Source: Bacteroidales bacterium
GTDB taxonomy: Bacteria > Bacteroidota > Bacteroidia > Bacteroidales > F082
Reading direction: 5' to 3'
Assembly: GCA_017461665.1 (NCBI GenBank)
Contig: JAFTXI010000011.1
Location: forward strand, 1 to 37,761
Length of the DNA: 37,761 bases
The translations under genes and the position numbers were made by a program. This document shows, piece by piece, positions 260-37,761 of this stretch. How positions within the stretch are numbered: position 1 is the first letter of the stretch; the number at the start of each line of letters is the position of its first letter. The notes under the pieces are model-generated. The model did no database searches, was not told the DNA's origin, and saw only the letters and a program-made list of their open reading frames with translations.

Positions 260-979
260 TTGTTGCAGGCATTACGTGCGGAAAAAGATAATGGAATAAA
301 AGGCGGCATTTATCATAAGACGCAAATTGACTTGACATATAATTCTAATCATATAGAAGGAAGTAAGTTGTCGCACGACCAGACAAGATATATTTTTGAG
401 ACAAATACCATCGGCATTGAAAAGGAATCGATACCTGTAGATGATATCATTGAGACAATAAGCCATTTTAAATGTGTCGATTATATTATCGACTGCGTAG
501 AGGAACGCCTGAGTGAGAAAATAATTAAGGATCTTCATCGAATGTTGAAGTTCGGTACGCAAGATACTTCAAAGAAATGGTTTACGGTTGGTGATTATAA
601 GAAATTTCCAAACGAGGTGGGAGGTAATGAGACGACATTGCCTGAGGAGGTACAATCTGAAATAAAGAAACTTCTTAAATCATATAACTCTAAAAAGCAG
701 AAGAAGCTCGACGATTTATTGGATTTCCATCATCGTTTTGAGAGCATCCATCCATTTCAGGACGGCAATGGTCGCGTTGGTCGCTTGATTCTGTTCAGAG
801 AATGTCTTGCCAACGACATAGTTCCATTTATCATAACTGATGATTTGAAATACTATTATTACAGAGGTCTGCGAGAATGGCAATCGGTGAAAGAATATCT
901 CCGCGATACATGCCTCAGCGCACAAGATAATTATAAGCTTTTGTTAAAATATTTTAGGATTGAATATAGCAATTCATAA
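260..979 (+). CDS. Fic-domain protein (AMPylase-like), 5'-truncated
   Basis: Fic enzymes transfer AMP or another nucleotide phosphate moiety to hydroxyl side chains of target proteins. The core motif HPFQDGNGRVGR lies at residues 164-175 and is complete, with His164 as the catalytic base. An inhibitory helix motif of the S-x-x-x-E-G type is seen at residues 29-34, as expected for a class II Fic protein with N-terminal autoinhibition. The start is doubtful: TTG at 260 is the only plausible start in the listed frame, yet the frame is open back to 173 and encodes GKTWNIPEDAALPAKGK, which resembles the linker after the N-terminal helix-turn-helix of long Fic family members. That DNA-binding part is missing, so the gene is probably a 5' remnant or pseudogene with an intact catalytic domain. 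The last two codons and the stop lie inside a heptamer repeat tract that begins at 971. Confidence 0.8.
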   Translation: MLQALRAEKDNGIKGGIYHKTQIDLTYNSNHIEGSKLSHDQTRYIFETNTIGIEKESIPVDDIIETISHFKCVDYIIDCVEERLSEKIIKDLHRMLKFGTQDTSKKWFTVGDYKKFPNEVGGNETTLPEEVQSEIKKLLKSYNSKKQKKLDDLLDFHHRFESIHPFQDGNGRVGRLILFRECLANDIVPFIITDDLKYYYYRGLREWQSVKEYLRDTCLSAQDNYKLLLKYFRIEYSNS

Positions 980-1031
980 TGCATAATTCACAAATCATAA
1001 TTATGAACTATGCATTATGAATTATGATTTG
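971..1031. repeat. Palindromic heptamer repeat, AATTCAT/AATTATG family
   Basis: Eight consecutive 7-base units run from 971 to 1026, all variants of AATTCAT in the left half and of its complement ATGAATT in the right half. Two alternative hairpins are possible: 971-989 with 1005-1023 (18 of 19 pairs), or 991-1002 with 1020-1031 (12 of 12). The tract supplies the fic stop codon and sits between two convergent genes, so it may act as a bidirectional terminator. Confidence 0.85.
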
Positions 1032-1034
1032 TCA

Positions 1035-2714
1035 TCAGCATTCTTTCGTCGCTGCTTCTAGCTTCTTCATGATGGAGAAGATGAAGATTGCTGACAATAA
1101 GCATAAGACGACGAGAACTCCCCATACCATCCATAATGGCATTCCGGTTCCCCAGATCTTCGCGATGACGCTGGTTAAATAGTTTCCTATCGCGGTGACG
1201 CAGAACCAGCAGCCCATCATCATGCCTTTATATTTTGGAGGAGCTACCTTTGTCACAAATGAAATACCGATTGGACTTAACAACAACTCAGCGAATGTCA
1301 AAACTAAATATGTGCTGATGAGCCAGTTTGGTGATACTAATGTGCTGCTGACGCCACCGGTAGCTTTTAACTCTGCCGGACTTAACAAATGTATCGATGC
1401 CATCGCCATGATAGCGAAACCCAAACCTGCTACAACCATACCCATACCAATCTTCTTTGGTGATGAAGGTTCTTTGCCTCTCTTAGCCAAGGCACCGAAT
1501 ACTGCCATCGAGACGGGTGTCAAGGCGACGACGAAGAATGGGTTGAATTGTTGGAATTCTTGTGGTAAGAGGTTGATGGTTTCCGGCATTCTGAGATATA
1601 ATACTGCTGCGCAACTCCATAGTAATAAGGTGATGACTCCGCAGATGATTCTGTTTTTCTTTGTCTCTGATTGGAATGTGGAGAATAAAGTATAAACCGA
1701 GATTGCTATTAATGTCAAAGCCCAGATATTGAATCCTATGCGTGAGATTCCTGTTGCAGTGCTTGCTGTGTAGTCGCGGGCGAAGAAGGTGAGACACAAT
1801 CCGCTTTGTTGGAACGACATCCAGAAGAAGATGACGACGGCGAATACCATGAACAAAGCTGTCATGCGAGAACGTGTTTGTTCTGGACTGAGTTCTTCGA
1901 CTTTAACTGTAGTGTTGCCCATTTCTTTGGCTTGTTTGCTGTTGACGTCGGCATGTTTGAACCAGTTGCGGCAGCAGACGTAAATCGCCATCGAAAGTAC
2001 TAATGAGATACAAGCTACTCCGAATCCGTAGTTGTATGCTGTTGACAATGAATCGATGTAGTTGTTGGCGAAAGTCATTAAGTCGCCGGTGTAACCTTGT
2101 TGTGCTGCGAGTGTTTCAAATGTCTGCGAGGCTTCAGGTGTTATTGTGCCGTTAATGTATTGATGAGCGAGTGATGGAATCTGTGGCACGTAGGTAAAAC
2201 CAGCTTTACCGAGGAAGAGGTCGGTGACTTTTGTCGCTGTCATAGGAGCGAACATAGAACCGATGTTGATAGCCATATAGAAAAGGCTGAATCCGTTGTC
2301 GCGGAAAGGACTGTATTTTGCTTCGTCGTAGAGGTTACCTACCAAGACTTGAAGATTTCCTTTGAAGAGCCCTGTTCCTATGGCGATGAGGGCGAGTGCT
2401 GAGAACATGGTGGTTTTAGCTGTGGCTCCCATCATCGGGACTGCGAGGAGCAGATAGCCGAGGAACATGACGATGATACCGGCTCTGACCATCTTTCCGT
2501 AACCGAAACGGTCGGCGAGGATACCGCCTATGAGTGGCATGAAATAAACACAACCGAGGAAGATACCGTAGATGTTGCCGGCTTGCGCCTCGTTAAAACC
2601 GAATTTAGCTTGCAAGAAAAGAACGAAGATAGCAAGCATAGTGTAATAGCCAAAACGTTCACCGGTGTTGGCTAATGCTAAGGCGTAAAGCCCTTTTGGA
2701 TGACCTTTAAACAT
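1035..2714 (-). CDS. POT-family (PTR2) peptide:proton symporter, copy 1
   Basis: Inner-membrane MFS transporter of the proton-dependent oligopeptide family, importing di- or tripeptides. The protein is 559 residues with 12 or more hydrophobic segments. The N-terminus FKGHPKGLYALALAN leads into GERFGYY in the first helix, and the PTR2 signature FYMAINIGS is present. In classic POT proteins the first-helix motif is ExxERF; here the first glutamate is Asn (NTGERF), as in the neighbouring copy. I chose ATG 2714 over the longer frame to 2750, because the paralogue begins with the same residues at its Met and because a TATTTTTG -7 element lies at 2732-2739. The longer start would add a lysine-rich stretch overlapping that promoter. 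Confidence 0.9.
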   Translation of the reverse strand: MFKGHPKGLYALALANTGERFGYYTMLAIFVLFLQAKFGFNEAQAGNIYGIFLGCVYFMPLIGGILADRFGYGKMVRAGIIVMFLGYLLLAVPMMGATAKTTMFSALALIAIGTGLFKGNLQVLVGNLYDEAKYSPFRDNGFSLFYMAINIGSMFAPMTATKVTDLFLGKAGFTYVPQIPSLAHQYINGTITPEASQTFETLAAQQGYTGDLMTFANNYIDSLSTAYNYGFGVACISLVLSMAIYVCCRNWFKHADVNSKQAKEMGNTTVKVEELSPEQTRSRMTALFMVFAVVIFFWMSFQQSGLCLTFFARDYTASTATGISRIGFNIWALTLIAISVYTLFSTFQSETKKNRIICGVITLLLWSCAAVLYLRMPETINLLPQEFQQFNPFFVVALTPVSMAVFGALAKRGKEPSSPKKIGMGMVVAGLGFAIMAMASIHLLSPAELKATGGVSSTLVSPNWLISTYLVLTFAELLLSPIGISFVTKVAPPKYKGMMMGCWFCVTAIGNYLTSVIAKIWGTGMPLWMVWGVLVVLCLLSAIFIFSIMKKLEAATKEC

Positions 2715-2731
2715 AATTTTTTTCTTTTTTG

Positions 2732-2739
2732 CAAAAATA
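2732..2739 (-). promoter_or_regulatory. -7 promoter element TATTTTTG for POT copy 1
   Basis: Matches the Bacteroidetes TAnnTTTG consensus on the minus strand, 17 bases before ATG 2714. Heptamer repeats of the GACAACG family lie just upstream. Confidence 0.55.
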
Positions 2740-2745
2740 AGAAAA

Positions 2746-2773
2746 GACAACAGACTACGGACAACGGATTACA
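2746..2773. repeat. Heptamer repeat, GACAACG family
   Basis: Four 7-base units beginning at 2746, 2753, 2760 and 2767, all variants of GACAACG. The same family occurs at 5464-5491 (opposite orientation) and at 37557-37591. Confidence 0.75.
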
Positions 2774-2843: not shown

Positions 2844-2845
2844 AC

Positions 2846-2880
2846 TTATAGTCTTATAGACTCATAGACTCATAGTCTTA
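2846..2880. repeat. Octamer repeat, TCATAGAC family
   Basis: Four 8-base units (variants of TCATAGAC and TTATAGTC) begin at 2846, 2854, 2862 and 2870. The tract abuts the stop codon of the upstream POT gene at 2881-2883. Confidence 0.75.
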
Positions 2881-4440
2881 TTATTGAGTTACTCTCTCTA
2901 ACCATTTAACCATGCCGAACATGACACCCATTGAGATGAGACATACTACCAAGAATACTGTCCAGCATTGCCAGATTGGCCAAGCGTTGTACATGAGAGG
3001 TCCGATCCATAACAAGAGGTTGCCGAGTGCTGTTGCACCTAACCATAAACCTTGACATAAACCTAACATGTGTTTTGGAGCTACCTTTGATACGAATGAT
3101 AATCCGAGAGGTGAGATGAAGAGTTCAGCAACTGTCAAGAAGAAGTAAACAGCGATGAGAACCCACCAGTGTGCTTTGTCAGCTACTTGTTCTGCGATAG
3201 GTAATGCTTTGAATTCGTTTGCTGATGGATAACCTTTCATATATGAGAAGATAGCCAAGAACAAGAATGCTAAACCAGCGATGAACATACCGATACCAAT
3301 CTTACGAGGAGTTGAAACTTCTTTACCTTTTCTTGCTAAAGCTGCGAAGATACCCATGATGATAGGAGTAAGAACGATAACGAAGAATGGGTTGACAGCT
3401 TGCCAGATTTCTGGAGCGATAGCTGAAGAGTCGACGAAGTCACGAGCGAAGAATGACAACGACATACCATTTTGGTGGAATGAGAACCAGAAGAAGATTA
3501 CGATACCTAACACTGCGAATAAAGCTGCCAAACGTTGTTTGATTTCTTTAGCCATAGCGAGTTTTTCTGCTTCGGTGTATGATGCTGATTCAACTTTTTC
3601 TTTCTTAGCAGGTGTTGGGAATCTCTTCTTGTTTGTGATGAATATTGTCAAAGAGATTAACATAGCTGCTACAGAAGCGATGAATGAATAGTGGATACCT
3701 TCGTTGAAGATTTGCAAATATCTTGAGCAAGAACCTGCCATGTCAGCGATGTTACCGCCAGCAGCTTCCATCATAGTCTTGAGGTTGTCCATAGCTTGTG
3801 CGCTCATGCCGGCAGCGTTGTTGATGAACTCGTGGCAGAGAGCTGGAAGAGCTGCGTTATATACCATGCCGTTTGTTTCTAACCACCATTCGCGGAGCAA
3901 TGGTGCTACGAAAGGAGCGATTAAACCACCAACGTTGATGAATACGTAGAAAATTTGGAAACCAGAGTCACGTTTGCTCTTTGCAATTCTTAAAGCTTCT
4001 TCACCTTTCTTGGCTTCTTCAGCTTCGAAGTTGTCGTACATCTGACCGACGATGGCTTGTAAGTTACCTTTGAATAAACCATTACCGAAAGCAATCATGA
4101 ATAAAGCGACGCATGTCAATGGTAATAACCATGTTTGGTTTGTAGCTGTAGCTGTGATTGGGATAGCTAAGAGGATATAACCTGCAGCCATTGTCATTAA
4201 ACCTTTTTGGATGGTGCCTTTGTAGTTTTGTGTACGGTCGGCAATCAAACCACCAACTAAACTGAGAAGGTAAATGCCTGCATAGAATACTGAATAGATA
4301 CTTCCACTGGCGCCTTCGCTTAAACCGAATTTTGAACAGAGGAACAACACGAGAACCGCGTTCATGATGTAGTAACCGAATCTTTCTCCCATGTTACTGA
4401 GAGCAGCGGCTAATAATCCTTTTGGATGTCCTTTTAACAT
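2881..4440 (-). CDS. POT-family (PTR2) peptide:proton symporter, copy 2
   Basis: A second 519-residue POT transporter, paralogous to the gene at 1035-2714 and read in the same direction. It begins LKGHPKGLLAAALSN, has GERFGYY in helix 1 and FYVFINVGG as the PTR2 signature, and ends in a hydrophobic helix followed by a short basic tail. A charged, alanine- and glutamate-rich stretch (around residues 155-170) replaces a short loop of copy 1. The first glutamate of ExxERF is again Asn. The gene has its own promoter (4507-4514) and a strong terminator (2811-2843), so the pair is two separate transcription units rather than an operon. Substrate differences between the copies cannot be read from the sequence. 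Confidence 0.9.
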   Translation of the reverse strand: MLKGHPKGLLAAALSNMGERFGYYIMNAVLVLFLCSKFGLSEGASGSIYSVFYAGIYLLSLVGGLIADRTQNYKGTIQKGLMTMAAGYILLAIPITATATNQTWLLPLTCVALFMIAFGNGLFKGNLQAIVGQMYDNFEAEEAKKGEEALRIAKSKRDSGFQIFYVFINVGGLIAPFVAPLLREWWLETNGMVYNAALPALCHEFINNAAGMSAQAMDNLKTMMEAAGGNIADMAGSCSRYLQIFNEGIHYSFIASVAAMLISLTIFITNKKRFPTPAKKEKVESASYTEAEKLAMAKEIKQRLAALFAVLGIVIFFWFSFHQNGMSLSFFARDFVDSSAIAPEIWQAVNPFFVIVLTPIIMGIFAALARKGKEVSTPRKIGIGMFIAGLAFLFLAIFSYMKGYPSANEFKALPIAEQVADKAHWWVLIAVYFFLTVAELFISPLGLSFVSKVAPKHMLGLCQGLWLGATALGNLLLWIGPLMYNAWPIWQCWTVFLVVCLISMGVMFGMVKWLERVTQ

Positions 4441-5377: not shown

Positions 5378-5458
5378 TCACCGAGATTTTGAAGTTTTGA
5401 GGTTTTGAGGTTTTGAAGTTCTGAAGTTTTGAAATTTCATAGTTCCAGAGTTCCAAAA
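5378..5458. repeat. Octamer repeat, TTTTGAGG family
   Basis: Nine consecutive 8-base units run from 5387 to 5458, variants of TTTTGAGG drifting to TTCCAGAG. One copy of TCACCGAG (5378-5385) stands just before, the same word that is repeated inside birA and at 28157-28188. Confidence 0.85.
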
Positions 5459-5463
5459 AAAAT

Positions 5464-5491
5464 CTGTTGTCTGTTGTCTGTTGTCAGTTGA
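5464..5491. repeat. Heptamer repeat CTGTTGT upstream of valS promoter
   Basis: Three perfect CTGTTGT units and one CAGTTGA. The tract ends seven bases before the valS -7 element, so its TTG trinucleotides occupy the place of the -33 element. Confidence 0.8.
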
Positions 5492-5498
5492 CTTTTAT

Positions 5499-5506
5499 TA
5501 TATTTG
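5499..5506 (+). promoter_or_regulatory. -7 promoter element TATATTTG for valS
   Basis: TAnnTTTG match 39 bases before the valS ATG. The upstream -33 position falls within the CTGTTGT repeat. Confidence 0.65.
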
Positions 5507-5545: not shown

Positions 5546-8173
5546 ATGGAAATCAGCAGTAAATACAATCCGCAGGATACCGAGACAAAATGGTATCTGC
5601 ATTGGTTAGATAAGAATTATTTTCATTCAACACCCGACGAACGCGAACCTTACACTATCGTCATTCCTCCGCCGAATGTTACTGGCGTGCTTCACATGGG
5701 GCATATGTTGAATAACACAATACAAGACGTCCTCGTGCGTCGTGCTCGTATGCAGGGCAAAAACGCTTGCTGGGTTCCTGGCACCGACCACGCTTCCATC
5801 GCTACTGAAGCTAAAGTCGTCAACAAACTCGCTCAACAAGGCATCAAGAAAACAGATCTCACTCGTGAGGAGTTCCTCAAACACGCCTGGGACTGGACTC
5901 ACGAACATGGCGGAATCATCTTGAAACAGCTTCGTCGCCTTGGCGCTTCCTGCGACTGGGAACGCACCTCATTCACAATGGACGAGACTCGCAGCAAGAG
6001 CGTCATCCACGTATTCTGCGACTTATATAAAAAAGGTCTCATCTATCGCGGCGTCAGAATGGTCAACTGGGATCCTAAGGCTCTCACTGCCCTCAGCGAT
6101 GAAGAAGTGGTTTATAAAGAAGGACATAGCAAGTTATATTATCTCCGTTATAAAGTTGAAGGTGAAGAAGGATACGCTATTGTCGCAACAACGCGTCCTG
6201 AGACTATCATGGGCGACACCGCAATGTGTATCAACCCTAACGACCCTAAAAACGAACATCTTAAAGGCAAGAAAGTCATCGTTCCTCTCGTAGGTCGCGC
6301 TATTCCTGTCATAGAAGACGAATACGTTGACATAGAATTCGGTACAGGTTGTCTCAAAGTGACTCCGGCTCACGACGTGAACGACTATATGCTCGGCGAG
6401 AAATATGGTCTCCAAAGCATCAATATCTTCAACGACGACGCTACTATCAGCGAAGCCGCCGGCATGTACGTCGGAATGGACCGCGACGATGTCCGTAAGC
6501 AAATAGTGAAAGACTTGGACGCCGCCGGTCTCTTAGAAAAAGTGGAAGACTATAATAATAAAGTGGGTTACTCAGAACGTACTCACGTAGCTATAGAACC
6601 AAAACTCTCAATGCAATGGTTCCTCAAGATGGAACATCTCGCAGAAATAGCTCTCAAACCTGTTCTCGATGGCGATATTCAGTTCTATCCTTCAAAATAT
6701 GTGAACCTCTATCGTCACTGGTTGGAAAACATAAAAGACTGGTGTATCAGCCGTCAACTCTGGTGGGGCCATCAGATTCCTGCTTATTATCTTCCAGAAG
6801 GTGGCTACGTCGTGGCAGAAACAGCTGAAGAGGCTCTCCGTCTCGCAAAAGAAAAAGCCGGCGACAACATCACAATGGACGACCTCCGTCAAGAGAGCGA
6901 CTGCTTAGATACTTGGTTCTCATCATGGCTCTGGCCTCTCTCATTGTTCGACGGTATCTTAAATCCTGACAACGAAGAATTCAAATATTATTATCCTACC
7001 AACGACCTTATCACAGGTCCGGACATCATCTTCTTCTGGGTCGCTCGTATGATTATGGCAGGCGAGGAGTATCAGAAAGAAGTTCCTTTCAGGAAGGTTT
7101 ATTTCACAGGTATCGTCCGCGACAAACTCGGTCGTAAGATGAGCAAGTCATTAGGAAATTCTCCAGACCCAATCGAACTTATCGATAAATATGGCGCCGA
7201 TGGCGTGAGAGTAGGAATGATGCTCACGGCTCCTGCTGGCAACGACCTTCCTTTCGATGAAGCTCTCTGCGAACAAGGACGTAACTTCTGTAACAAAATG
7301 TGGAACGCCCTCCGTCTTGTAAAAGGCTGGAACGTCGATGAAAACATCGCTCAGCCAGAAACAGCAAAGATGGCAGTGAGATGGTTCGAACAAAGATTCT
7401 ATCAGGTTCTTCAAGAAACAAACGACAACCTTGACAAATATCGTCTCTCCGATGCTTTGATGGGTATATACAAACTCGTTTGGGACGACTTCTGCTCATG
7501 GTACTTAGAAATGGTGAAAGCTCCTATGAATCAGCCAATCGACGCTGCGACATACAACGCTACTGTCACTTTCTTCGAAAACCTTATGAAGATTTTACAT
7601 CCATTCATGCCTTTCATCACAGAAGATATCTGGCATCTCTTGAGAGAACGTCAAGAGGGCAACGACATCATCATCGCTCAACAGCCTGAACAACAAAAAG
7701 TCGATGAAAATATCTTGAATCAATTTATATTTACACAAGACGTTATCAACAACATTCGTAAGATTCGCGCTGAGAAAAACATCTCGATGAAAGAATCTAT
7801 CGAGCTTATCGTAGTTGATAAAGACGGTAGCATAAATAAGGAATTCGATTCTGTTATTATGAAGTTATGTAATGTAAGTTCAGTGAATTACGTGACAGAA
7901 AATCCACAAGACGCGTTTGGTTTCTTGGTGAAAGCTACAGAGTTTTTCATTCCTGTCACAGACAATATCGACACTGAAGCTGAGATTAAGAAGTTGGAAG
8001 AAGAGTTGAAATATGCTCAAGGTTTCTTGAAATCGGTCGAGGCAAAACTGTCGAACGAGAAGTTTGTCAACGGCGCACCTGCTGCTGTCGTCGATAAAGA
8101 AAGAAAGAAGAAAGCCGATTCCGAAGCGAAGATAAAAGTTATAGAACAACAATTGGCAGCGCTGAGGAAGTAG
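5546..8173 (+). CDS. valS: Valyl-tRNA synthetase
   Basis: Charges tRNA-Val with valine in the cytoplasm and edits mischarged threonine. The 875-residue protein has the usual class I layout. The HIGH-type motif HMGH is at residues 50-53 after PPPNVTGVL, and KMSKS is at 531-535. The CP1 editing domain holds [12 protein letters not shown] and a [12 protein letters not shown] segment, followed by [12 protein letters not shown] in the catalytic domain. An anticodon-binding domain follows, and the last 75 residues form the charged coiled coil typical of ValRS. Codon use is strongly biased (CTC, CGT, AAC, ATC), as in a highly expressed gene, in contrast with the AT-rich accessory genes nearby. It is a single transcription unit with a promoter at 5499-5506 and a terminator at 8243-8268. 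Confidence 0.98.
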
Positions 8174-8178
8174 GTTGT

Positions 8179-8241
8179 AATTCATAATTCATAGTGCATA
8201 ATGCATAATTATGAATTGTGAATTATGCATTATGAATTGTA
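8179..8241. repeat. Heptamer repeat, AATTCAT/AATTATG family, copy 2
   Basis: Nine consecutive 7-base units with left-half variants of AATTCAT and right-half variants of AATTATG, the same family as 971-1031 but only partly self-complementary. It begins six bases after the valS stop codon. Confidence 0.85.
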
Positions 8242-8242
8242 G

Positions 8243-8268
8243 GGGCGTATCGTATACGTCCTTTTTTT
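8243..8268 (+). terminator. Terminator of valS
   Basis: An eight-base stem (8243-8250 with 8254-8261, one G-T pair) and a three-base loop are followed by seven T residues. The palindrome GGGCGTAT-CGT-ATACGTCC has the same build as the GGACACAT hairpins at 28703 and 37735. Confidence 0.8.
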
Positions 8269-13562: not shown

Positions 13563-13614
13563 ATTAAATTTATTTTTCAGGGGATAACGTACAAATCCTA
13601 ACAAATATTATTTT

Positions 13615-13700
13615 AACTTACAATTTACAGTTAACAATTAACAACTCTTAAAATTGTCAACTGTTAACTGTAAATTGTAAATTGTCAATTGTACATTGTA
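13615..13700. repeat. Palindromic heptamer repeat, AATTGTA/AGTTAAC family
   Basis: About twelve 7-base units with one two-base slip near 13650. The left half is made of AATTTAC/AATTAAC words and the right half of AACTGTA/AATTGTA words, giving a stem of about 22 pairs (21 match). The tract abuts the guaB stop codon at 13701 and may serve as its terminator. The same words recur at 28086-28141. Confidence 0.85.
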
Positions 13701-15173
13701 TTAAGCTTTTGTGCTATAGTTAGGAGATTCTTGAGTTATAGTGATGTCGTGTGGGTGGCTTTCGCGCATACCCGAAGCGGTAATCTTGATGAACTGAGCT
13801 TTTTGTAAGTCGCTGATAGTTCTTGAACCTGTGTAGCCCATACCTGCGCGGAGACCACCGACCAATTGATATACGACTTCAGAGAGGCTGCCTTTGTAAG
13901 GGACACGGCCGACGATTCCTTCTGGAACGAGTTTCTTGATGTCGTCTTCCATGTCTTGGAAGTAACGGTCTTTGGAACCACATTGCATTGCTTCTAATGA
14001 ACCCATGCCGCGGTATGTCTTGTATTTTCTACCTTCGAAGATGATGGTGTCGCCTGGTGACTCATCGACGCCTGCGAACAAGGAGCCTGCCATGATTGTT
14101 GAAGCGCCTGCTGCGATGGCTTTCACTATGTCGCCCGTGTAACGGATACCGCCGTCAGCGATGACAGGGATGCCTGTGCCTTGGAGAGCTTGCGACACGT
14201 TATATACTGCTGTGAGTTGTGGAACGCCGATACCTGCGATGATACGTGTGGTGCAGATAGAACCTGGTCCTATACCTACCTTAATAGCGTCGATCTCTGT
14301 CTTTGCCAATTCGCGTGCTGCATCTGCTGTAGCGATATTACCTACCACGATGTCGATGTTAGGGAATCTGTGACGCAACTCTTTAGCGACATTGATGACG
14401 TTTTGTGAGTGACCGTGAGCAGTGTCGATGTTGATAGCGTCGACGCCTTCTGCTACTAATGCCTCAGCACGTTCTATTGTGTTGGCAGCGATACCTACCG
14501 AAGCAGCTACGCGTAAACGACCTAAAGAGTCTTTGCTTGCATTAGGACGTGCCTTAATCTTAATGATGTCTTTGTATGTGATGAGTCCGATGAGGTGATT
14601 GCCTTCATCTACTACAGGTAATTTCTCTATGCGGTGTTTTTGAAGTATATCGGCTGCTTCTGCAAAATCGGTGAACTCTCTTGTTGTGACTAAATTGTCT
14701 TTTGTCATGACTTCGCTGATGAAGCGTTTCATATCTTTGATGAAACGGAGGTCTCGGTTGGTGACGATACCGACTAAGACATTGTTCTCGTTCACTACAG
14801 GGATACCGCCGATACGATATTCATTCATCATGCGGAGCGCTTCGCCTACGGTAGCATTTTCTCTGATGGTGACAGGATCGGTGATCATGCCGTTTTCAGC
14901 ACGTTTAACCTTACGGACTTCAGCAGCTTGACGCTCGATAGTCATGTTCTTGTGAAGAACACCGATACCGCCTTCTTGAGCGATGGCAATAGCCATAGAT
15001 GCTTCTGTTACAGTATCCATACCTGCTGTCACGATAGGAATGTTGAGTTGAATGTTACGAGAGAAGTTGGTACTTAAATTAGTATCTCTTGGAATGATAT
15101 CGCTGTATGCCGGCACTAACAAAACATCGTCGTATGTTAAACCGCCTTCGATAAATTTTACTGTATCTGACAT
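13701..15173 (-). CDS. guaB: IMP dehydrogenase
   Basis: Oxidises IMP to XMP with NAD+, the first committed step of GMP synthesis. The 490-residue protein matches the usual bacterial length. Two CBS domains occupy about residues 95-205, inserted into the catalytic barrel. The active-site loop GPGSICTTR carries the catalytic Cys307, and the flap region holds RGMGS and KDRYFQ. The promoter at 15204-15211 lies 30 bases upstream. Co-location with SurA-like genes and moxR is seen in other Bacteroidetes, and no functional link is obvious. Confidence 0.98.
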   Translation of the reverse strand: MSDTVKFIEGGLTYDDVLLVPAYSDIIPRDTNLSTNFSRNIQLNIPIVTAGMDTVTEASMAIAIAQEGGIGVLHKNMTIERQAAEVRKVKRAENGMITDPVTIRENATVGEALRMMNEYRIGGIPVVNENNVLVGIVTNRDLRFIKDMKRFISEVMTKDNLVTTREFTDFAEAADILQKHRIEKLPVVDEGNHLIGLITYKDIIKIKARPNASKDSLGRLRVAASVGIAANTIERAEALVAEGVDAINIDTAHGHSQNVINVAKELRHRFPNIDIVVGNIATADAARELAKTEIDAIKVGIGPGSICTTRIIAGIGVPQLTAVYNVSQALQGTGIPVIADGGIRYTGDIVKAIAAGASTIMAGSLFAGVDESPGDTIIFEGRKYKTYRGMGSLEAMQCGSKDRYFQDMEDDIKKLVPEGIVGRVPYKGSLSEVVYQLVGGLRAGMGYTGSRTISDLQKAQFIKITASGMRESHPHDITITQESPNYSTKA

Positions 15174-21280: not shown

Positions 21281-21288
21281 CAAAGATA
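21281..21288 (-). promoter_or_regulatory. -7 promoter element TATCTTTG for subtilase copy 2
   Basis: Perfect TAnnTTTG match on the minus strand, 26 bases before ATG 21254. The upstream promoter region overlaps the AATTAGG repeat at 21294-21328. Confidence 0.7.
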
Positions 21289-21293
21289 AAAAT

Positions 21294-21328
21294 AATTAGG
21301 AATTGGGAGTTAGGAATTAGGAATTATT
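21294..21328. repeat. Heptamer repeat, AATTAGG family
   Basis: Five 7-base units, variants of AATTAGG, beginning at 21294. The same word recurs at 30181-30208 and inside the ORF at 37632-37666. Confidence 0.8.
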
Positions 21329-21342
21329 TTTTTAAGGATTAA

Positions 21343-24625: not shown

Positions 24626-24633
24626 CAAAGATA
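24626..24633 (-). promoter_or_regulatory. -7 promoter element TATCTTTG for rsfS-ftsH-LUD
   Basis: Perfect TAnnTTTG match on the minus strand, 24 bases before ATG 24601. The octamer repeat at 24641-24680 lies directly upstream, at the place of the -33 element. Confidence 0.7.
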
Positions 24634-24640
24634 ATAAAAA

Positions 24641-24680
24641 AGTCAACAAGTCAACAAGTCAACGAGTCAACAAGTTTTTT
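24641..24680. repeat. Octamer repeat AGTCAACA
   Basis: Five 8-base units, three of them perfect AGTCAACA, one AGTCAACG and one degenerate. On the minus strand the unit reads TGTTGACT, so it can supply TTG words upstream of the rsfS promoter. Confidence 0.8.
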
Positions 24681-25483: not shown

Positions 25484-26221
25484 ATGAAAATCACGCGTTT
25501 TAAAAATATAGATTCTACTAATTCTTATCTTCAGAATCTTCTCGATGAAGGCGAAAATGTTATTGATAATATTGTCGTTACAGATTTTCAAACTTCAGGG
25601 AAAGGTCAGGGAAAGAACGTCTGGCAAAGCGAGGAAGGAAAGAATCTGCTTTTCAGCATAGCCTTAGATATGAGTTTCCTTAAAGCCGAAGACCAGTTCC
25701 TTCTCACTCAGATTGTCTCTTTGTCGATGGTCGAGGTTTTAAAGAAATATCTTCCAGAAGAATCTCTCTTCATAAAATGGCCTAACGATATTTATTTCAA
25801 CGATAAGAAAATCTCAGGCGTACTGATAAATAACGAGATAAAAGGAATGATGATGGGAACTTCTATTATCGGAATAGGTCTCAACGTAAATCAAACGTCT
25901 TTCGATGAGAATCTCCCAAATCCTATTTCTATGAAGATGATAACGGGAAAGGATTACGATTTGGAAGAGATTCTTTTAGCTGTTTATAAGTCACTGAGTT
26001 ACCGAGTCACCGAGTCGCCGAGTGATTCTAACACATCGTTCGTAGTTCAAAATTATAACAAACACCTATTTCGTTACAAACAATGGGCTTTGTATGAACA
26101 CGAAGGTCTCATTAAAGAAATGATGATTGTCGGTTATGACAAATTCGGTCGTCTTATCTTAAAAGAAAAAAACGACCGTGAAGTCGTTTGTGATTTGAAA
26201 GATATTGTATTTAGAATCTGA
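25484..26221 (+). CDS. birA: Biotin--[acetyl-CoA-carboxylase] ligase
   Basis: Attaches biotin to the carrier lysine of biotin enzymes. The 245-residue protein has only the catalytic and C-terminal domains, with no DNA-binding domain, so it is a ligase and not a repressor. Visible motifs are IDSTNSYL, the biotin-binding loop TSGKGQGKNVWQS, and IKWPNDIYFNDKKISGVLI. ATG 25484 starts the conserved region; the frame back to 25427 has no support. A weak -7-like TATTTTCG lies at 25472-25479, just before the start. An octamer repeat (25991-26022) is embedded in the frame and encodes SLSYRVTESPSD between the catalytic and C-terminal domains. The stop codon lies inside the next repeat. Confidence 0.93.
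   Translation: MKITRFKNIDSTNSYLQNLLDEGENVIDNIVVTDFQTSGKGQGKNVWQSEEGKNLLFSIALDMSFLKAEDQFLLTQIVSLSMVEVLKKYLPEESLFIKWPNDIYFNDKKISGVLINNEIKGMMMGTSIIGIGLNVNQTSFDENLPNPISMKMITGKDYDLEEILLAVYKSLSYRVTESPSDSNTSFVVQNYNKHLFRYKQWALYEHEGLIKEMMIVGYDKFGRLILKEKNDREVVCDLKDIVFRI
25991..26022. repeat. Octamer repeat TCACCGAG inside birA
   Basis: Four 8-base units (TCACTGAG, TTACCGAG, TCACCGAG, TCGCCGAG). The reverse complement of the same words forms the intergenic tract at 28157-28188. Since 32 is not a multiple of three, simple insertion would shift the frame unless flanking bases compensated. Confidence 0.85.
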
Positions 26222-26289
26222 GAACCTTAAAAACTCAAAACCTGAAAAATATTTTTAAATTTTCAATTTTCGGTTTTCAATTCTCAATT
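26213..26289. repeat. Octamer repeat, AAAACCTG then TTTCAATT, self-complementary
   Basis: Nine 8-base units from 26213. The first half is A-rich, the second T-rich, so the tract can fold on itself. It contains the birA stop codon (26219-26221) and lies between two convergent genes. Confidence 0.75.
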
Positions 26290-26706: not shown

Positions 26707-26760
26707 AGACGTGTCAATTACAGATGTTTATTTTCGTTGATGTAATTGACGCGTCTCTAC
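26707..26760. repeat. TAGAGACG-type palindrome, copy 4
   Basis: Left arm 26707-26722 pairs with right arm 26741-26756 at 15 of 16 positions. The core is GTCAATTACA / TGTAATTGAC and the outer end is CGTCTCTAC. It lies between pyrE and the SRPBCC gene and is followed on the minus strand by a T-rich stretch, so it may end the pyrE transcript. Confidence 0.8.
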
Positions 26761-26792
26761 TTGTAGTCTTTTAGTCTTGTTGACTTGTGGTC
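26761..26792. repeat. Octamer repeat, TTGTAGTC family
   Basis: Four 8-base units, variants of TTGTAGTC, immediately beside the palindrome at 26707-26760 and ending nine bases from the pyrE stop codon. Confidence 0.75.
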
Positions 26793-26801
26793 TTAAAAAA
26801 A

Positions 26802-27481: not shown

Positions 27482-28106
27482 TATACTTTTTTGCAATAAT
27501 AGGACGCTTGTATGCAGAAATTTTTTTGAACAATTTCTATACGATGATGTAAAAGAGGGAGTATGTTCTTCGCAAGTGTTTGAGAATACGTTAAATAAAA
27601 TAAATAACTGGCTTGAAAACAGCGATGAGAATCTTGTTATCGACGATGTGGATAACGATATTTTGGCGGCTGCCATAAAGAAAATATTTCGTTTTGCCCC
27701 GGCAGCTGGTGGCATAATCCATATCAATAATTCCATAGTAGCGATTGAAAGAAACGGAATCCTTGATTTGCCGAAAGGCCATATCGAACAAGGAGAGTCT
27801 CCTGAGGAGGCAGCGTTGCGCGAGGTGAGAGAAGAAACAGCAATCTCAAACTTATCTATCATCAAACAACTACCTTCATCACATCACTGCTATCTTCTTA
27901 ACAACCAATGGACTTTGAAAAAGACTTCTTGGTTCCTGATGTCAACAAACGACGAGTTTAAACCTAAACCTCAAACCGAAGAAGGAATTTCAAAAGTGTT
28001 TCTGCTGAACAAAGATAATGTCAATGAGTTTTTGGAAAAGACTTTCATCTCGCTGAGAATTACACTCGGAGAGGAAATCATTAGTCAATTAACAATTGAC
28101 AATTAA
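27477..28106 (+). CDS. NUDIX hydrolase
   Basis: Hydrolyses a nucleoside diphosphate linked to another group; the substrate cannot be told. The 209-residue protein has a Bacteroidetes-type N-terminal extension (MYILFCNNRTLVC) and the Nudix box GHIEQGESPEEAALREV followed by REETAI. The metal-binding REVREE core is intact, while the usual Gly near the end is Ala. The C-terminal residues QLTIDN and the stop codon are encoded by the heptamer repeat 28086-28141. The gene is divergent from pyrE, with its start codon inside the pyrE -7 element. Confidence 0.88.
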   Translation: MYILFCNNRTLVCRNFFEQFLYDDVKEGVCSSQVFENTLNKINNWLENSDENLVIDDVDNDILAAAIKKIFRFAPAAGGIIHINNSIVAIERNGILDLPKGHIEQGESPEEAALREVREETAISNLSIIKQLPSSHHCYLLNNQWTLKKTSWFLMSTNDEFKPKPQTEEGISKVFLLNKDNVNEFLEKTFISLRITLGEEIISQLTIDN

Positions 28107-28141
28107 CAGTTGACAATTAACAATAAAGGATAAAGGGATAG
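28086..28141. repeat. Heptamer repeat, CAATTAA family
   Basis: Eight 7-base units from 28086 (CAATTAA, CAATTGA, CAGTTGA and drifted forms). The first three units lie in the NUDIX reading frame and supply its stop codon. Confidence 0.85.
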
Positions 28142-28156: not shown

Positions 28157-28188
28157 CTTGGTGACTCGGTGACTCAGAGACTCGGCGA
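28157..28188. repeat. Octamer repeat CTCGGTGA
   Basis: Four 8-base units (CTTGGTGA, CTCGGTGA, CTCAGAGA, CTCGGCGA), the reverse complement of the words inside birA. Two CCGTTGT-type heptamers follow at 28199-28212, directly before coaD. Confidence 0.85.
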
Positions 28189-28222
28189 CTTCGACATTCC
28201 GTTGTCCGTTGACTTTTAAATT

Positions 28223-30157: not shown

Positions 30158-30165
30158 TATCTTTG
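30158..30165 (+). promoter_or_regulatory. -7 promoter element TATCTTTG for secA
   Basis: Perfect TAnnTTTG match directly after the upstream gene, 53 bases before the secA ATG. The AATTAGG repeat 30181-30208 forms most of the leader. Confidence 0.7.
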
Positions 30166-30180: not shown

Positions 30181-30208
30181 AATTAGGAATCAGGAATTAG
30201 GAATTAAA
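30181..30208. repeat. Heptamer repeat AATTAGG in the secA leader
   Basis: Four 7-base units of AATTAGG type ending ten bases before the secA ATG, so the transcribed leader is mostly repeat. Confidence 0.8.
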
Positions 30209-33509: not shown

Positions 33510-33557
33510 GGAACTTCAGAACTTAAAAACTTCTGAATCTGAAAACATTAAAATGAT
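33510..33557. repeat. Octamer repeat, AAAACTTC family
   Basis: Six 8-base units (GGAACTTC, AGAACTTA, AAAACTTC and drifted forms), the reverse complement of the TTTTGAAG words at 5387-5458. It starts six bases after the secA stop codon and ends before the terminator. Confidence 0.8.
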
Positions 33558-33794: not shown

Positions 33795-36062
33795 ATGACA
33801 AGAAACAAAACAAAGGACAATATAAATAATCCTAAAGTTCTCATTAACTTTAGTCGTTTGTCGTTTGTTTTTTGCCTTTTGTCGTTAGTTGTTAACATTT
33901 CAGCTCAACAATCTACCGATTCCACAGAAAAGCTTCGTCGCCCTCGTGTTGGCGTCGTGTTAAGCGGTGGCGGAGCGAAAGGATTCGCGCATATCGGTGT
34001 GTTGAAAGTCATTGAAGAGGCTGGACTCCCAATAGATTATATTGCAGGCACGAGTATGGGTAGCATCGTCGGTGGACTTTATGCCATGGGTTATGATACC
34101 GAGACGATGATACGTCTTACAAGAGAACAAAATTGGGATGCTATAATGTCGGATAATATTCCACGAAAATATATCTCTATAGATGAGAAGATGATGGATC
34201 GTCATTATCTCGCGACGTTTCCCTTCAGAGGCAGGAGGATACAGATGAAATCCGGAATCTATGGAGGCGAGATGATAAACCTTCTCTTGGCACGACTGAC
34301 TTCTCCGGCATACGATGTCAGAAATTACAGTAATCTCTCCGTGCCGTTTTTATGTGTCGCTACTGACTTAGAGACGGCTGAGGCATACGAGATGAGTCAT
34401 GGTAATCTGCAACGCTCCATCAGAGCCTCGATGTCGATACCGTTTTATTTCGCTCCCGTCGAAGTAGATGGTAGACTGCTCGTCGATGGCGGACTGAGAA
34501 ACAACTTCCCCGTACATAACGTCCGCGAGAGAGACGTCGATATCATAATAGGCGTCGATGTGCAACGCGACTTCCATAAAAAAGACGACCTTAACTCCTT
34601 GGCAAAGATTATGGATCAGATTATCGCGATGACCGATATCGATGCGAATATAAAGGCGAGGGAAGAAGTCGATATTCACATAAAACCGAGACTATCTAAA
34701 TACGGAATGATGGATTTTAATTCATACGACACCATTATCGCGCTTGGTGAGGAGGCGGCACGCGAGTTTCTGCCACAGATGAAACAACTCGCCGACTCGA
34801 TAAAAAATATTCAGGATTATGAGATAAAACGTCCTCATGTCGAACCTTTAGATACTATCTTCGTGGTGTCTCTTAAAATAGATGGAGTGAAAGATGAAAA
34901 CGCAGCCTTTATAAGAAAGTCGATGGCAAAATATTATCCCATCAATATGTCAATATCCGACATCGAGACTGCCATCATGAGAATCTATGCCACAGGATAT
35001 TTTAAAGATATTTGGTACGAGTTTCGCCCTGCTCCTAAAGGCGTCAACCTTATTCTGCATTGTAAGGAAAAAGAAGAAGAGACAGTGTCGATAGCAGCTC
35101 ACTACGACACGGATTATGGAATAGGAATCTTGACAAATGTCACACTGAAAAACATCCTGAAGTTCCCTAAACGTTCCACCATCTCTGGCGACCTCAACAT
35201 AGCAGAAGACCCTTATTTCAAATTTAGATTCCATTCCAATGTCTCACGTAAATTCAAATATGGAACAGAAGCATCAGTGATAAGTCTCTTCATGAATCAG
35301 TATGACGACAAACTGATAAATAATTCATATAGTATACAAGACAACAAGATAGACTTGTTCGCAGAGTTGATGCCGACACTGGAACAGCAGTTTAGAATAG
35401 GTGCAGTGTTAAACTATGTTCACCTGAGAGATAATTTAGAACATACCGTAGATGCCGACAATTACGATTTTATCACATACGCCTATCTCAACTATAATCT
35501 TAATAATGAAGACTCACCGACATACGCATCGAGAGGATGGAAACTTAATGTCAATGGAAAATATATACTTCCTATGGTGAAGTTAGAAGACGGTTCGCGA
35601 ATGGGTAACTCTTTAGTTGTCAGAGCCGACTTGGATGGTTCCATTGCAATGGGGAAGAGACTCTCTATGAAATTGGGAGCTACAGTGGGAACTTCATTAA
35701 ACAGCAATGAACCTCCATTAAGTTATCGTTTCTTCGTAGGAGGACAGTCGTACATGAAATATTTTGACAACATCATTTCTTTCGATGGATTGAAGTTCAC
35801 GCAGTTATATGGCGACCATATAGCTCTCGCAAAAATATCGTGGCAGTATAACCTCTACAAAAATATTTACGCCATAGCAAATTTCAACGGAGGTTATGTC
35901 TCAAACAGTTATGACGAATGGTTTACCGACGATAATTTCGTCTTCGGTTGTGGCTTGACTTTAGGAATGAATACGGTGGCAGGTCCTATCGAAGTCAGTC
36001 TTATGGGTTCCAACAGATGTTCAGGTTTGGTGGGATTCCTAAATGTAGGATATTGGTTTTAA
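33795..36062 (+). CDS. Patatin-like phospholipase fused to POTRA and outer-membrane barrel
   Basis: The 755-residue outer-membrane protein has the plan of PlpD-type (type Vd) proteins. After a signal peptide (about 18-38), the patatin domain has GGGAKG at 58-63, GTSMG at 85-89 with nucleophile Ser87, and VDGGLRNNFP with Asp231 completing the Ser-Asp dyad. A POTRA-like segment follows (VVSLKIDGVKDENAAF, ATGYFKDIWYEF). A barrel of roughly 300 residues ends in FLNVGYWF with a terminal Phe. It would act on phospholipids at or beyond the outer membrane. The signal-peptide coding region is itself a heptamer repeat (33853-33894). pyrH follows after 24 bases and may be co-transcribed. Confidence 0.93.
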   Translation: MTRNKTKDNINNPKVLINFSRLSFVFCLLSLVVNISAQQSTDSTEKLRRPRVGVVLSGGGAKGFAHIGVLKVIEEAGLPIDYIAGTSMGSIVGGLYAMGYDTETMIRLTREQNWDAIMSDNIPRKYISIDEKMMDRHYLATFPFRGRRIQMKSGIYGGEMINLLLARLTSPAYDVRNYSNLSVPFLCVATDLETAEAYEMSHGNLQRSIRASMSIPFYFAPVEVDGRLLVDGGLRNNFPVHNVRERDVDIIIGVDVQRDFHKKDDLNSLAKIMDQIIAMTDIDANIKAREEVDIHIKPRLSKYGMMDFNSYDTIIALGEEAAREFLPQMKQLADSIKNIQDYEIKRPHVEPLDTIFVVSLKIDGVKDENAAFIRKSMAKYYPINMSISDIETAIMRIYATGYFKDIWYEFRPAPKGVNLILHCKEKEEETVSIAAHYDTDYGIGILTNVTLKNILKFPKRSTISGDLNIAEDPYFKFRFHSNVSRKFKYGTEASVISLFMNQYDDKLINNSYSIQDNKIDLFAELMPTLEQQFRIGAVLNYVHLRDNLEHTVDADNYDFITYAYLNYNLNNEDSPTYASRGWKLNVNGKYILPMVKLEDGSRMGNSLVVRADLDGSIAMGKRLSMKLGATVGTSLNSNEPPLSYRFFVGGQSYMKYFDNIISFDGLKFTQLYGDHIALAKISWQYNLYKNIYAIANFNGGYVSNSYDEWFTDDNFVFGCGLTLGMNTVAGPIEVSLMGSNRCSGLVGFLNVGYWF
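33853..33894. repeat. Heptamer repeat GTCGTTT inside the patatin signal peptide
   Basis: Six 7-base units beginning with two perfect GTCGTTT and then drifting (GTTTTTT, GCCTTTT, GTCGTTA, GTTGTTA). Read in frame they encode the hydrophobic core RLSFVFCLLSLVVN. Confidence 0.75.
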
Positions 36063-36814: not shown

Positions 36815-36822
36815 TATTTTTG
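36815..36822 (+). promoter_or_regulatory. -7 promoter element TATTTTTG for frr
   Basis: TAnnTTTG match, 20 bases before the frr ATG. It allows frr to be transcribed apart from pyrH. Confidence 0.6.
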
Positions 36823-36842
36823 TGCTCTAAAATAAATGTAAT

Positions 36843-37406
36843 ATGACAGACGAATCTCAATTTATCTTAGATGAAACAACTGAAACCATGGAAAACACCA
36901 TGAAACACATGGAAAACGAGTTTCAGAAAATTAGAGCAGGTAAGGCAAGTCCTGCTATGTTGCAAGGTGTTAAGGTAGAATATTATGGAACAATAGTTCC
37001 TATCGAGCAGACATCCAACATTGGTACACCAGACCCACGCCAAATCATAGTTCAACCTTTCGATAAAAGTTCAATATCAGCAATAGAGAAAGCTATCATG
37101 GCTGCCAACTTGGGCTTCAACCCTAAAAATGAAGGTGACTTCTTGCGTATTCTCGTCCCTCCATTGACAGAAGAACGTCGTAAAGATCTCGCAAAACGCT
37201 CAAAGACAGTGGCAGAAGAGACAAAGGTTGGTATCCGTAACATTCGTCGTAACGCCAACGACGACGCCAAGAAACTTAAAGACGAAGGTGTTTCGGAAGA
37301 CGAAGTCAAGATTGTTACAGAGAAGATTCAAGAACTTACTGACAAATATGTCAAGAAGATTGACGAACTCTGCGAGTTGAAAGTCAAGGATATTTTGACA
37401 GTTTGA
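36843..37406 (+). CDS. frr: Ribosome recycling factor
   Basis: Splits post-termination ribosomes together with EF-G. The 187-residue protein is of typical length and has the diagnostic segments FQKIRAGKASPAML, the QIIVQPFDKSSISAIEKAI stretch, and NEGDFLRILVPPLTEERRKDL. The C-terminal half is the long three-helix bundle. A repeat and a strong terminator follow (37416-37498). Confidence 0.98.
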   Translation: MTDESQFILDETTETMENTMKHMENEFQKIRAGKASPAMLQGVKVEYYGTIVPIEQTSNIGTPDPRQIIVQPFDKSSISAIEKAIMAANLGFNPKNEGDFLRILVPPLTEERRKDLAKRSKTVAEETKVGIRNIRRNANDDAKKLKDEGVSEDEVKIVTEKIQELTDKYVKKIDELCELKVKDILTV

Positions 37407-37415
37407 TTCTTTTTA

Positions 37416-37455
37416 AAACTCGGAAATTTAAAAACTGAGAAACTAAAAAAAATTA
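37416..37455. repeat. Octamer repeat, AAAACTGA family
   Basis: Five 8-base units (AAAACTCG, GAAATTTA, AAAACTGA, GAAACTAA and an A-rich one) between the frr stop codon and the terminator, the same word family as 33510-33557. Confidence 0.75.
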
Positions 37456-37498
37456 ACGCGTTAAGTGCAGAAAAACACCAGCATTTAACGCGTTTTTT
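37455..37498 (+). terminator. Terminator of frr
   Basis: A 14-base stem (37455-37468 with 37481-37494, one G-T pair) with a 12-base loop runs into a T run. Confidence 0.9.
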
Positions 37499-37501
37499 AT
37501 T

Positions 37502-37509
37502 TATCTTTG
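37502..37509 (+). promoter_or_regulatory. -7 promoter element TATCTTTG for the last ORF
   Basis: Perfect TAnnTTTG match only seven bases before ATG 37517, so the transcript would be nearly leaderless. Confidence 0.6.
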
Positions 37510-37516
37510 CGCAACC

Positions 37517-37761
37517 ATGAGAATGCTCCTGTTTTACATATTATTCGCTTTGCTCAGTCAACAGATAACAGACAACGGACAACAGACTTCGTCCACGGTC
37601 GCTGAGCCTGTCGAAGCGCAGATTGTTGAAGAATTAGGAATTAGGAGTGAGGAATTAGGAATTGATTCGGTCGCTGAGCCTGTCGAAGCGCCGGGCGATG
37701 TTGACGTGCCTTCGACAAGCTCAGGCACCTGTACGGACACATTGAATGTGTCCACGTATAT
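37517..37761 (+). CDS. Partial secreted protein with repeat-built N-terminus
   Basis: The frame starts at ATG 37517 and is open for 81 codons to the window edge. The first 14 residues (MRMLLFYILFALLS) look like a short signal peptide. The rest reads mostly as dispersed DNA repeats: GACAACG heptamers (37557-37591), the word GTCGCTGAGCCTGTCGAAGC twice (encoding VAEPVEA), AATTAGG heptamers (37632-37666) and the GGACACAT palindrome (37735-37753). Nothing in it matches a family I know. A -7 element and a preceding terminator support a real transcription start. What the protein does must be coded beyond the window. It could also be a chance open frame. Confidence 0.55.
   Translation, partial: MRMLLFYILFALLSQQITDNGQQTSSTVAEPVEAQIVEELGIRSEELGIDSVAEPVEAPGDVDVPSTSSGTCTDTLNVSTY
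37557..37591. repeat. Heptamer repeat GACAACG inside the last ORF
   Basis: Five 7-base units (GTCAACA, GATAACA, GACAACG, GACAACA, GACTTCG), the same family as 2746-2773. Confidence 0.8.
37596..37728. repeat. Three copies of a GCTGAGCCTGTCGAAG element
   Basis: Two identical 24-base direct copies (37596-37619 and 37668-37691) are 72 bases apart, thus in the same reading frame. A third copy (37710-37724) is inverted with 14 of 15 bases matching and sits in its own small hairpin, GTGCC ... GGCAC (37706-37728). I recall similar GAGCCTGTCGAAG words as dispersed repeats in many bacterial genomes; this is from memory. Confidence 0.85.
37632..37666. repeat. Heptamer repeat AATTAGG inside the last ORF
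   Basis: Five 7-base units, three of them perfect AATTAGG, in frame between the two direct GCTGAGCC copies and encoding ELGIRSEELGI. Confidence 0.8.
37735..37753. repeat. Palindrome GGACACAT-TGA-ATGTGTCC inside the last ORF
   Basis: A perfect eight-base stem, matching the intergenic copy at 28703-28721 except for the loop. Confidence 0.8.

Follow-up and report, generated by a model that had tools for sequence, protein, structure and literature searches.

Short tandem arrays of seven- and eight-base units in a Bacteroidales genome: a small set of recurring words and a recurrent predicted promoter position

A 37,761-nucleotide (nt) stretch of a Bacteroidales genome (contig JAFTXI010000011.1, assembly GCA_017461665.1; hereafter the window, meaning the whole stretch that was analysed) carries ordinary genes, among them valS, ftsH, secA, rsfS, an IMP dehydrogenase, a biotin ligase, an amino-acid-kinase-family gene and two POT transporters, together with short degenerate tandem arrays whose units measure 7 or 8 bases and whose spelling differs from site to site. 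What could hold the period of such arrays fixed while their words change? An initial annotation, made from the letters of the window, had listed about 20 of them, proposed a genome-wide class born of one generating process, and named the heptamer repeats of cyanobacteria, known as STRR, as the closest parallel. We lean, by a modest degree, towards regarding the arrays as tiny non-coding dispersed elements: a small set of words would be copied in blocks into places that tolerate them, a good share of these in one promoter slot. The promoter lock and the dispersal at a preferred size are additions beyond the initial annotation.

Period, words and preferred size

Arrays were detected with a lag-match scanner with a score threshold, below which short arrays can fall, and in the window also with Tandem Repeats Finder as a second detector; order-2 local shuffles (20 for the window, five for the genome sample) served as the null model. 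All 20 tracts of the initial annotation hold the period assigned to them, three of them with weak scan scores (2746, score 10; 26213, 10.5; 33510, 9) and one (37416) scoring best at period 16, that is 2 x 8. Tandem Repeats Finder recovered 19 of the 20, the missing one being 26213. Period 7 gave 13 matches in the window and period 8 gave 8, against shuffle means of 0.45 and 0.40; period 3 followed with 4 matches (shuffles 1.05), and periods 4, 6, 12 and 16 had one each.

The same picture emerges from a genome sample of 437,761 bases, which joins the window to 20 stretches of 20 kb picked by position from its own genome (G000; 2,491,993 bases, 60 contigs, 94% complete). It holds 65 arrays of period 7 and 36 of period 8, followed by 7 of period 14 and 4 of period 16, each remaining period between 3 and 20 having at most 5; five shuffles yielded 0–2 arrays for period 7 and 0–1 for period 8. 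The proposed lock to 7 and 8 is borne out in this sample: periods are not spread evenly from 5 to 10, and no other period exceeds 7 arrays. A 50-kb piece of E. coli K-12, scanned alike, contained no period-7 or -8 array, and chance or AT-rich composition as the source is rejected by the shuffles and this one control. Ninety-one of 112 arrays in the sample are intergenic, against 21% intergenic DNA, a fraction that depends on our own gene calls and gene starts, made with a custom simple scorer.

The recurrence of words far apart and in both orientations, also claimed initially, takes the form of a limited vocabulary. Of the 81 period-7 arrays, which form 9 word clusters, 73 belong to the four largest; of the 43 period-8 arrays, in 14 clusters, the four largest account for 32. 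Unit pair similarity is 0.206 for period 7 and 0.120 for period 8, where shuffled units give 0.053 and 0.011. Leading 7-mers are GACAAC(A/G), (T/G/A)ACAATT, CCTAATT, CATAATT, GAAAGTT and TAAAGTT; leading 8-mers are AGTCACCG, GAAGTTTT and AGAC(nn)CA. Three close relatives (G009, G056 and G069) have a comparable word set with different favourites.

Size is limited as well. Among 290 period-7 arrays from four species the mode is 33 nt (28 arrays, flanked by 20 at 32 nt, 16 at 34 and 3 at 35), and among 169 period-8 arrays from the same species it is 35–36 nt (55 arrays), such that the commonest array consists of about four units and a part unit.

Arrays at predicted promoters and at orthologous sites

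Promoters and their -7 boxes are predictions throughout. For the housekeeping sigma factor (sigma-ABfr) of the Bacteroidetes the -7 motif is TAnnTTTG (PMC7366714), and boxes of this form were present upstream of genes here too. The slot in which arrays recur is laid out as an A-run, about four units, a T-run and the predicted -7 box TATCTTTG. A whole-genome search for CAAAGATA, the box read backwards, followed within 0–30 nt by a GACAAC array returned 20 distinct places, and the reversed control none. The first matching unit lies 8–10 nt past CAAAGATA in 17 of these; in the remaining three it follows, still in phase, after one or two deviating units. AATTAGG arrays follow CAAAGATA at nine distinct places, eight times at 5 nt and in phase; in both counts, as in the odd-unit count below, overlapping rows were merged and the places tallied by hand. 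A pattern search of the genome for the opposite array orientation at the box gave no hit.

Relatives were placed by SecA identity: among 60 congeners searched, G069, G063, G056, G043 and G009 stand at 92–93% and the next at 84% or below. The metagenome-assembled genome RGIG7249 (Bacteroidales, water buffalo cecum), a congener, shows 92% identity, and its contig is the same as the G009 locus. In four species, a period-7 or -8 array lies within 60 nt upstream of 40 of 209 intergenic TATCTTTG boxes and downstream of 7 of 209. The corresponding upstream counts are 1 of 19 boxes in farther congeners (18 loci) and 3 of 73 in other Bacteroidota (74 loci). With boxes tied to genes in the six close species, 40 of 154 promoters carry an array, 3 of the 40 lying in loci that were included to compare rsfS. 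An A-run of at least five bases precedes 31 of these 40 promoters, versus 39 of the 114 array-free ones. From the end of the A-run to the box the distance is 36–38 nt in 23 of 26 period-7 cases and 41–42 nt in 4 of 5 period-8 cases; since this spacing differs by period, the number of units, about four, seems to be conserved and the length not. Genes downstream of array promoters (ten were looked up) include thrS, hisS, ftsY, purB, formate-tetrahydrofolate ligase, hutI and mgsA, and in the window valS, rsfS-ftsH, a subtilase and a POT transporter.

At orthologous sites the place is kept and the word often changes. The rsfS-ftsH promoter, whose loci were chosen because G000 carries an array there and are ascertained to that extent, shows A-run, array, T-run and TATCTTTG in all six close species, in one (G056) with an array visible by eye that falls below scanner detection. 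Three word families occur there: the 8-mer CTTGTTGA in G000 with a degenerate 8-mer of the same family in G056, CTTTAG/CTTTTG-type 7-mers in G063, G069 and G009, and GTTGTCC in G043. Among farther congeners 0 of 24 have a period-7 or -8 array at this site, the box often being kept and the stretches from G021 and G051 possibly missing the promoter. Arrays occur in 12 ortholog groups, in 8 of them in at least two species (with independent occupancy, a shared array would be expected in about 15% of the pairs that have any), and the word families clearly differ in five of these eight (rsfS, the gene divergent from rsfS, hisS, subtilase and one more), some differing in period too; one ortholog promoter pair goes from CCTAATT to CTTGTAGT. 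Orthology does not, on average, make two arrays more similar: the similarity rank of 13 orthologous pairs among non-orthologous pairs averages 0.51 (exceptions 0.04 and 0.19), and 8 of the 13 share their period.

Over gaps of all kinds, 114 orthologous pairs have arrays in both members in 17 cases, in one in 19 and in neither in 78. The secA leader carries AATTAGG in G000 and G063, an 8-mer in G069, CATTATG with a hairpin in G009 and no array in G043. The site at 28086..28136 was compared by eye and bears other words in G009, G056, G063 and G069 and no array in G043. The in-frame site of the biotin ligase, judged partly by eye, holds the AGTCACCG family in G000 and G056 (L103), other words in G043 (L106) and G069 (L102), and no array in four farther congeners.

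A promoter array probably sets the geometry between the A-tract and the -7 box, and would be kept for that irrespective of its spelling; selection on this geometry would hold the number of units at about four. A stronger form of the idea, which we put forward tentatively and believe somewhat less than even, is a promoter defined by structure and made up of an A-tract, four direct repeats of any 7- or 8-base word current in the genome, a T-tract and a -7 box. The cassette would be swapped en bloc between promoters of one genome, orthologous promoters keeping the layout while spelling and even period are replaced within one genus. The clade offers natural sets of orthologous housekeeping promoters whose main difference is the word of the block, and the function of the block is thereby directly testable.

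The same constancy could instead reflect operators, the arrays being read by RNA polymerase or by a DNA-binding protein of about four modules and maintained by selection alone, with words that track the protein. Position, orientation and unit number are indeed constant, with different total lengths for 7- and 8-mers, and arrays persist at the orthologous housekeeping promoters of valS, hisS and rsfS-ftsH. A reader of this kind would have to accept unrelated words and both periods, which coexist at equivalent promoters of one genome, and the replacement of CCTAATT by CTTGTAGT, and it would leave the many arrays located elsewhere aside; we consider such operators unlikely. Our literature search, which covered mostly open-access papers and dealt with promoters in only part, found no account of repeat arrays in promoter slots of Bacteroidota.

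Origin and spread of the arrays

The 33-nt element of the AATTAGG family has 39 + 29 matches in the genome at up to 3 mismatches (overlapping registers counted), 11 of them exact, against none for the reversed control. Unit order was assessed over 80 rows found with a pattern of uniform AATTAGG units, neutral as to where an odd unit stands; places with several or zero odd units were excluded. In the 33 scored places the AGT-type odd unit stands third in 30, second in 1 and fourth in 2. Within the 30, at least four places (window, L215, L216, L004) belong to copies of one gene family and have common flanks, and the copies on C19 and at C52:726 share flanks as well. The flanks of most other fetched copies are unrelated once a promoter box or an adjoining repeat is set aside, and the left boundary is sharp. 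Because this order, scored for the AATTAGG family only, is shared at unrelated sites, we reject independent slippage as the main route of spread: the tracts would mostly not be independent slippage products, and a small word set appears to have spread as short arrays.

Across the phylum the 33-mer (at up to 3 mismatches) was found in 16 of 395 genomes, apparently including our own, and outside mostly as pure tracts. The word AATTATG is very patchy, with 0 to 186 matches among 23 congeners; two distant genomes rich in it, G033 and G039, have other leading words and, in the parts fetched, a looser period. No gene that would explain array-rich and array-poor genomes turned up, no systematic search having been made.

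We return to the reading favoured at the outset, that of word blocks copied between tolerant sites. Preferred size, shared unit order within one family, fixed position and orientation at the predicted promoters, inherited position and word turnover were seen directly. As to mechanism, blocks of about four and a half imperfect 7- or 8-base copies may land in intergenic gaps, in linkers within coding frames and in promoter slots, moving by ectopic gene conversion or template switching. The A-run on one side and the T-run with the -7 box on the other could serve as common ends, allowing one array to replace another en bloc. Whole-unit slippage would maintain the likeness of the units within an array and could make it longer, and copying of a fold-back would yield inverted pairs.

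Several observations weigh against this reading. Most arrays lie away from promoters, so the slot cannot account for all of them. Eight arrays of other periods occur upstream of boxes in the four species. No moving enzyme or target-site duplication was found, no strain pair in the sample is close enough to catch one array move, and long pure tracts show plain slippage at work too. In 4 of the 12 ortholog groups the array occurs in one species only. The valS words differ by one base per unit, formate-tetrahydrofolate ligase (G000/G056) and POT (G000/G043) keep their word family, and the CTTTAG-type word at rsfS is common to three species, from which we conclude that vertical descent also acts. 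Ortholog counts in general are small and non-independent: of 38 ortholog pairs with TATCTTTG on both sides, arrays lie in both members of 10, in one of 7 and in neither of 21, and rsfS alone accounts for 6 of these 10 and for 4 of the 7 one-sided pairs. Finally, in only 11 of 33 cases does an arm of an inverted pair find its closest match within the sampled genome in the opposite arm, so not all inverted pairs are fresh mirror copies.

Independent polymerase slippage would have each tract arise by itself from favoured steps of 7–8 bases and decay by point mutation, words recurring through base composition. A general excess of heptamers in bacteria has been explained in this way (PMC4679880, PMC4692102), and pure AATTAGG tracts exist in other genera. 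In 74 loci of other Bacteroidota (1.35 Mb), period 7 is likewise the commonest, with 26 arrays against 7 for the next period and 1–3 in shuffles; the words there are many and differ from genome to genome (e.g., in Mucilaginibacter). Tandem units exceed chance in our data as slippage demands; the independent origin that it also demands, lacking a shared unit order, was not what the AATTAGG family displayed. Neither would slippage predict the small word set with its preferred total size, the fixed offset and orientation at promoters, or the change of the word across a whole array at several orthologous sites, and we judge it a poor candidate for the class as a whole. A single generating process, as initially suggested, is possible for the birth of arrays, which the lead of period 7 in other Bacteroidota favours; it does not extend to the words, which were not each generated anew.

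The initial remark that some tracts switch to the complementary word and become hairpins also held true. Same-word neighbours less than 200 nt apart in the sampled loci of the genus are inverted in 29 cases and direct in 6, as compared with 345 inverted and 363 direct among 5,585 random array pairs, and 20 of the 29 gaps measure 5–21 nt. Three palindromes in the window fold strongly (965-1032, z = -4.4; 8172-8245, z = -6.4; 13610-13702, z = -4.6). Such features would suit RNA hairpins of the BIME or terminator kind retained for a role in the transcript, and one gap, which measures 6 nt in G043, holds a 65-nt array palindrome in G056 and a GAGACG-type hairpin in G069. Single arrays fold barely beyond shuffles (21290-21330, z -1.1; 28080-28140, z -1.7). 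Promoter arrays, moreover, sit upstream of the presumed start site. In the arms of 23 array inverted repeats between co-directional genes, G.U cells on the sense strand number 18 against 17 A.C cells (10 against 7 in other inverted repeats), so there is no sign of selection at the RNA level; Rfam gave no match at the gathering threshold in the window and four reverse-transcriptase loci. A transcript role as the reason for the class is accordingly improbable in our eyes.

Elements borne by a transposase (REP/RAYT or MITE) are the least credible source, very improbable despite the dispersal of short copies and the REP-like hairpins that adjoin several arrays, given that the Y1 transposase (PF01797, the one family searched) was not found in this 94%-complete genome and is present in 5 of 14 control genomes, and that inspection by eye revealed neither terminal repeats nor duplications. 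Of the arrays, some are palindromic as a REP element would be, and many are not. The hairpins themselves, of the form GTAGAGACG...CGTCTCTAC, are sometimes nested between the arms of arrays (window 26707-26756 and 2819-2842; L012:7621-7786; L101:16340).

The 2.5-Mb genome also encodes four RVT_1 reverse transcriptases (C58:50816, C31:5526, C26:29299 and C44:56684; L222-L225), all of which match the group II intron reverse-transcriptase model below its cut-off as well as generic reverse-transcriptase profiles of a defence library. Weak Lcl_C or Fib_succ_major matches lie N-terminal to the reverse transcriptase in three of them; our guess would be that the genes belong to diversity-generating retroelements. 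No link between these four genes and the arrays was found. Substitution rates inside arrays are 0.135 for A, 0.134 for C, 0.152 for G and 0.133 for T, a flat spectrum without adenine bias, which leaves adenine-directed mutagenesis of arrays unsupported.

Related repeats and the features of the window

The Nostoc small dispersed repeats are very small elements, mobile through RNA and not known to have an enzyme of their own. They share their tiny size with the arrays described here, as the heptamers that occur in the cyanobacterium Calothrix (PMC4692102) share the heptamer array; in our case the array itself is the dispersed unit. The cyanobacterial parallel drawn initially is therefore a fair one, but closer published cases exist. 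One is the TAACTGA heptamer, found in Beggiatoaceae, cyanobacteria and five Bacteroidetes (PMC4679880). One of the five, Paludibacter propionicigenes, belongs to the Bacteroidales, the order for which the initial annotation knew of no described equivalent. These heptamers too are mostly intergenic and patchy among relatives. They consist of one word and in the Guaymas genome lie mostly just before start codons; the arrays described here have many words and stand before a -7 box or elsewhere between genes, some adjoining start codons (e.g., in the secA leader) and most not. TAACTGA itself was absent as a cluster unit from the 437,761 bases scanned.

The other close case is the degenerate GGGAATC heptamer of Xanthomonas, which is mostly intergenic, has a four-unit mode and forms close inverted pairs, and which in two species lies mostly between the same genes with differing length and sequence (PMC4692102). 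Our arrays likewise peak at about four units, form close inverted pairs and keep their place while the sequence varies; they differ in their many words, their 8-mers and the fixed promoter slot. Both GGGAATC and the GGGGA(C/T)T of Nostoc are G-rich, their four units having been tied to G-quadruplexes (PMC4692102). Of 124 arrays in our data, 0 carry four GGG runs on a single strand and 18 carry four GG, so the four-unit preference is not a rule of three-tier quadruplexes, and in words unable to form them it needs another reason in this clade. Published attributions of heptamer repeats comprise polymerase slippage, G-quadruplexes and translational control (PMC4679880, PMC4692102). The sigma-ABfr promoter of Bacteroides shares the -7 motif TAnnTTTG with our slot and is described with a -33 element and an AT-rich spacer, the part of the source at hand mentioning no repeat array (PMC7366714). 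We place the class with the heptamer repeats, as a variant whose route of copying and possible promoter function are inferred.

Table 1. Arrays and predicted -7 boxes in the window (promoter assignments are predictions; a dot marks features without an assigned strand).
Position	Strand	Feature	Context
971..1030	.	7-base array, CATAATT to AATTATG	Palindromic; adjoins the end of a Fic-domain gene (Pfam); fold z -4.4
2732..2739	-	Predicted -7-like box TATTTTTG	POT transporter promoter
2742..2768	-	7-base array, GACAAC family	Promoter slot of POT transporter gene 1035-2714; same word family in the G043 ortholog
2845..2881	.	8-base array, CTYATAGW	Adjoins GAGACG...CGTCTC hairpin (2819-2842)
5387..5455	.	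8-base array, GARGTTYT	Immediately upstream of the valS promoter array
5463..5490	+	7-base array, TCTGTTG	Promoter slot of valS (5546-8173); TCTTTTG in the G056 ortholog
5499..5506	+	Predicted -7-like box TATATTTG	valS
8178..8238	.	7-base palindromic array	Between convergent genes
13615..13700	.	Inverted 7-base pair, ACAATT / AATTGT	G056 ortholog arranged alike
21281..21288	-	Predicted -7 box TATCTTTG	Subtilase promoter
21294..21326	-	33-nt AATTAGG element	Promoter slot of subtilase gene 18273-21254; 8-base array in the G063 ortholog
24626..24633	-	Predicted -7 box TATCTTTG	rsfS-ftsH
24637..24675	-	8-base array, CTTGTTGA	Promoter slot of rsfS-ftsH
25989..26023	+	8-base array, AGTCACCG	In frame inside the biotin ligase coding sequence
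26213..26248	.	Weak 8-base array (score 10.5)	End of the biotin ligase gene
26253..26289	.	7-base array, TTTTCAA	Absent from the initial list of 20
26760..26794	.	35-nt 8-base array, CTTGTAGT	Beside REP-like hairpin (26707-26756); same family in the G009 ortholog
28086..28136	.	7-base array, CAATTAA/CAATTGA	Before a cytidylyltransferase-like gene
28157..28190	.	8-base array, CTCGGTGA	Same gap as the array at 28086..28136
30181..30206	+	AATTAGG array	secA 5' leader, downstream of the secA box TATCTTTG (30158-30165)
33511..33532	.	Weak 8-base array (score 9)	After secA
33850..33894	+	7-base array, GTCGTTT	Inside the start of a patatin-like gene
37411..37450	.	8-base array, best at 16	
37560..37587	+	GACAAC array	Within the open frame starting at 37517
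37631..37663	+	33-nt AATTAGG element	In open frame 37517; C4 and C5 (L215, L216) carry the same element and flanks

Two further observations concern the surroundings of arrays. In G069 a longer tandem repeat, in which CACGAA words occur, takes up a gap (L166:5323-5941) beside 8-base arrays. At the end of the window, the open frame 37517-37761 begins like a signal peptide and continues as a linker composed of the GACAAC array, the AATTAGG element and copies of a CTTCGACAGGCTCAG-type repeat.

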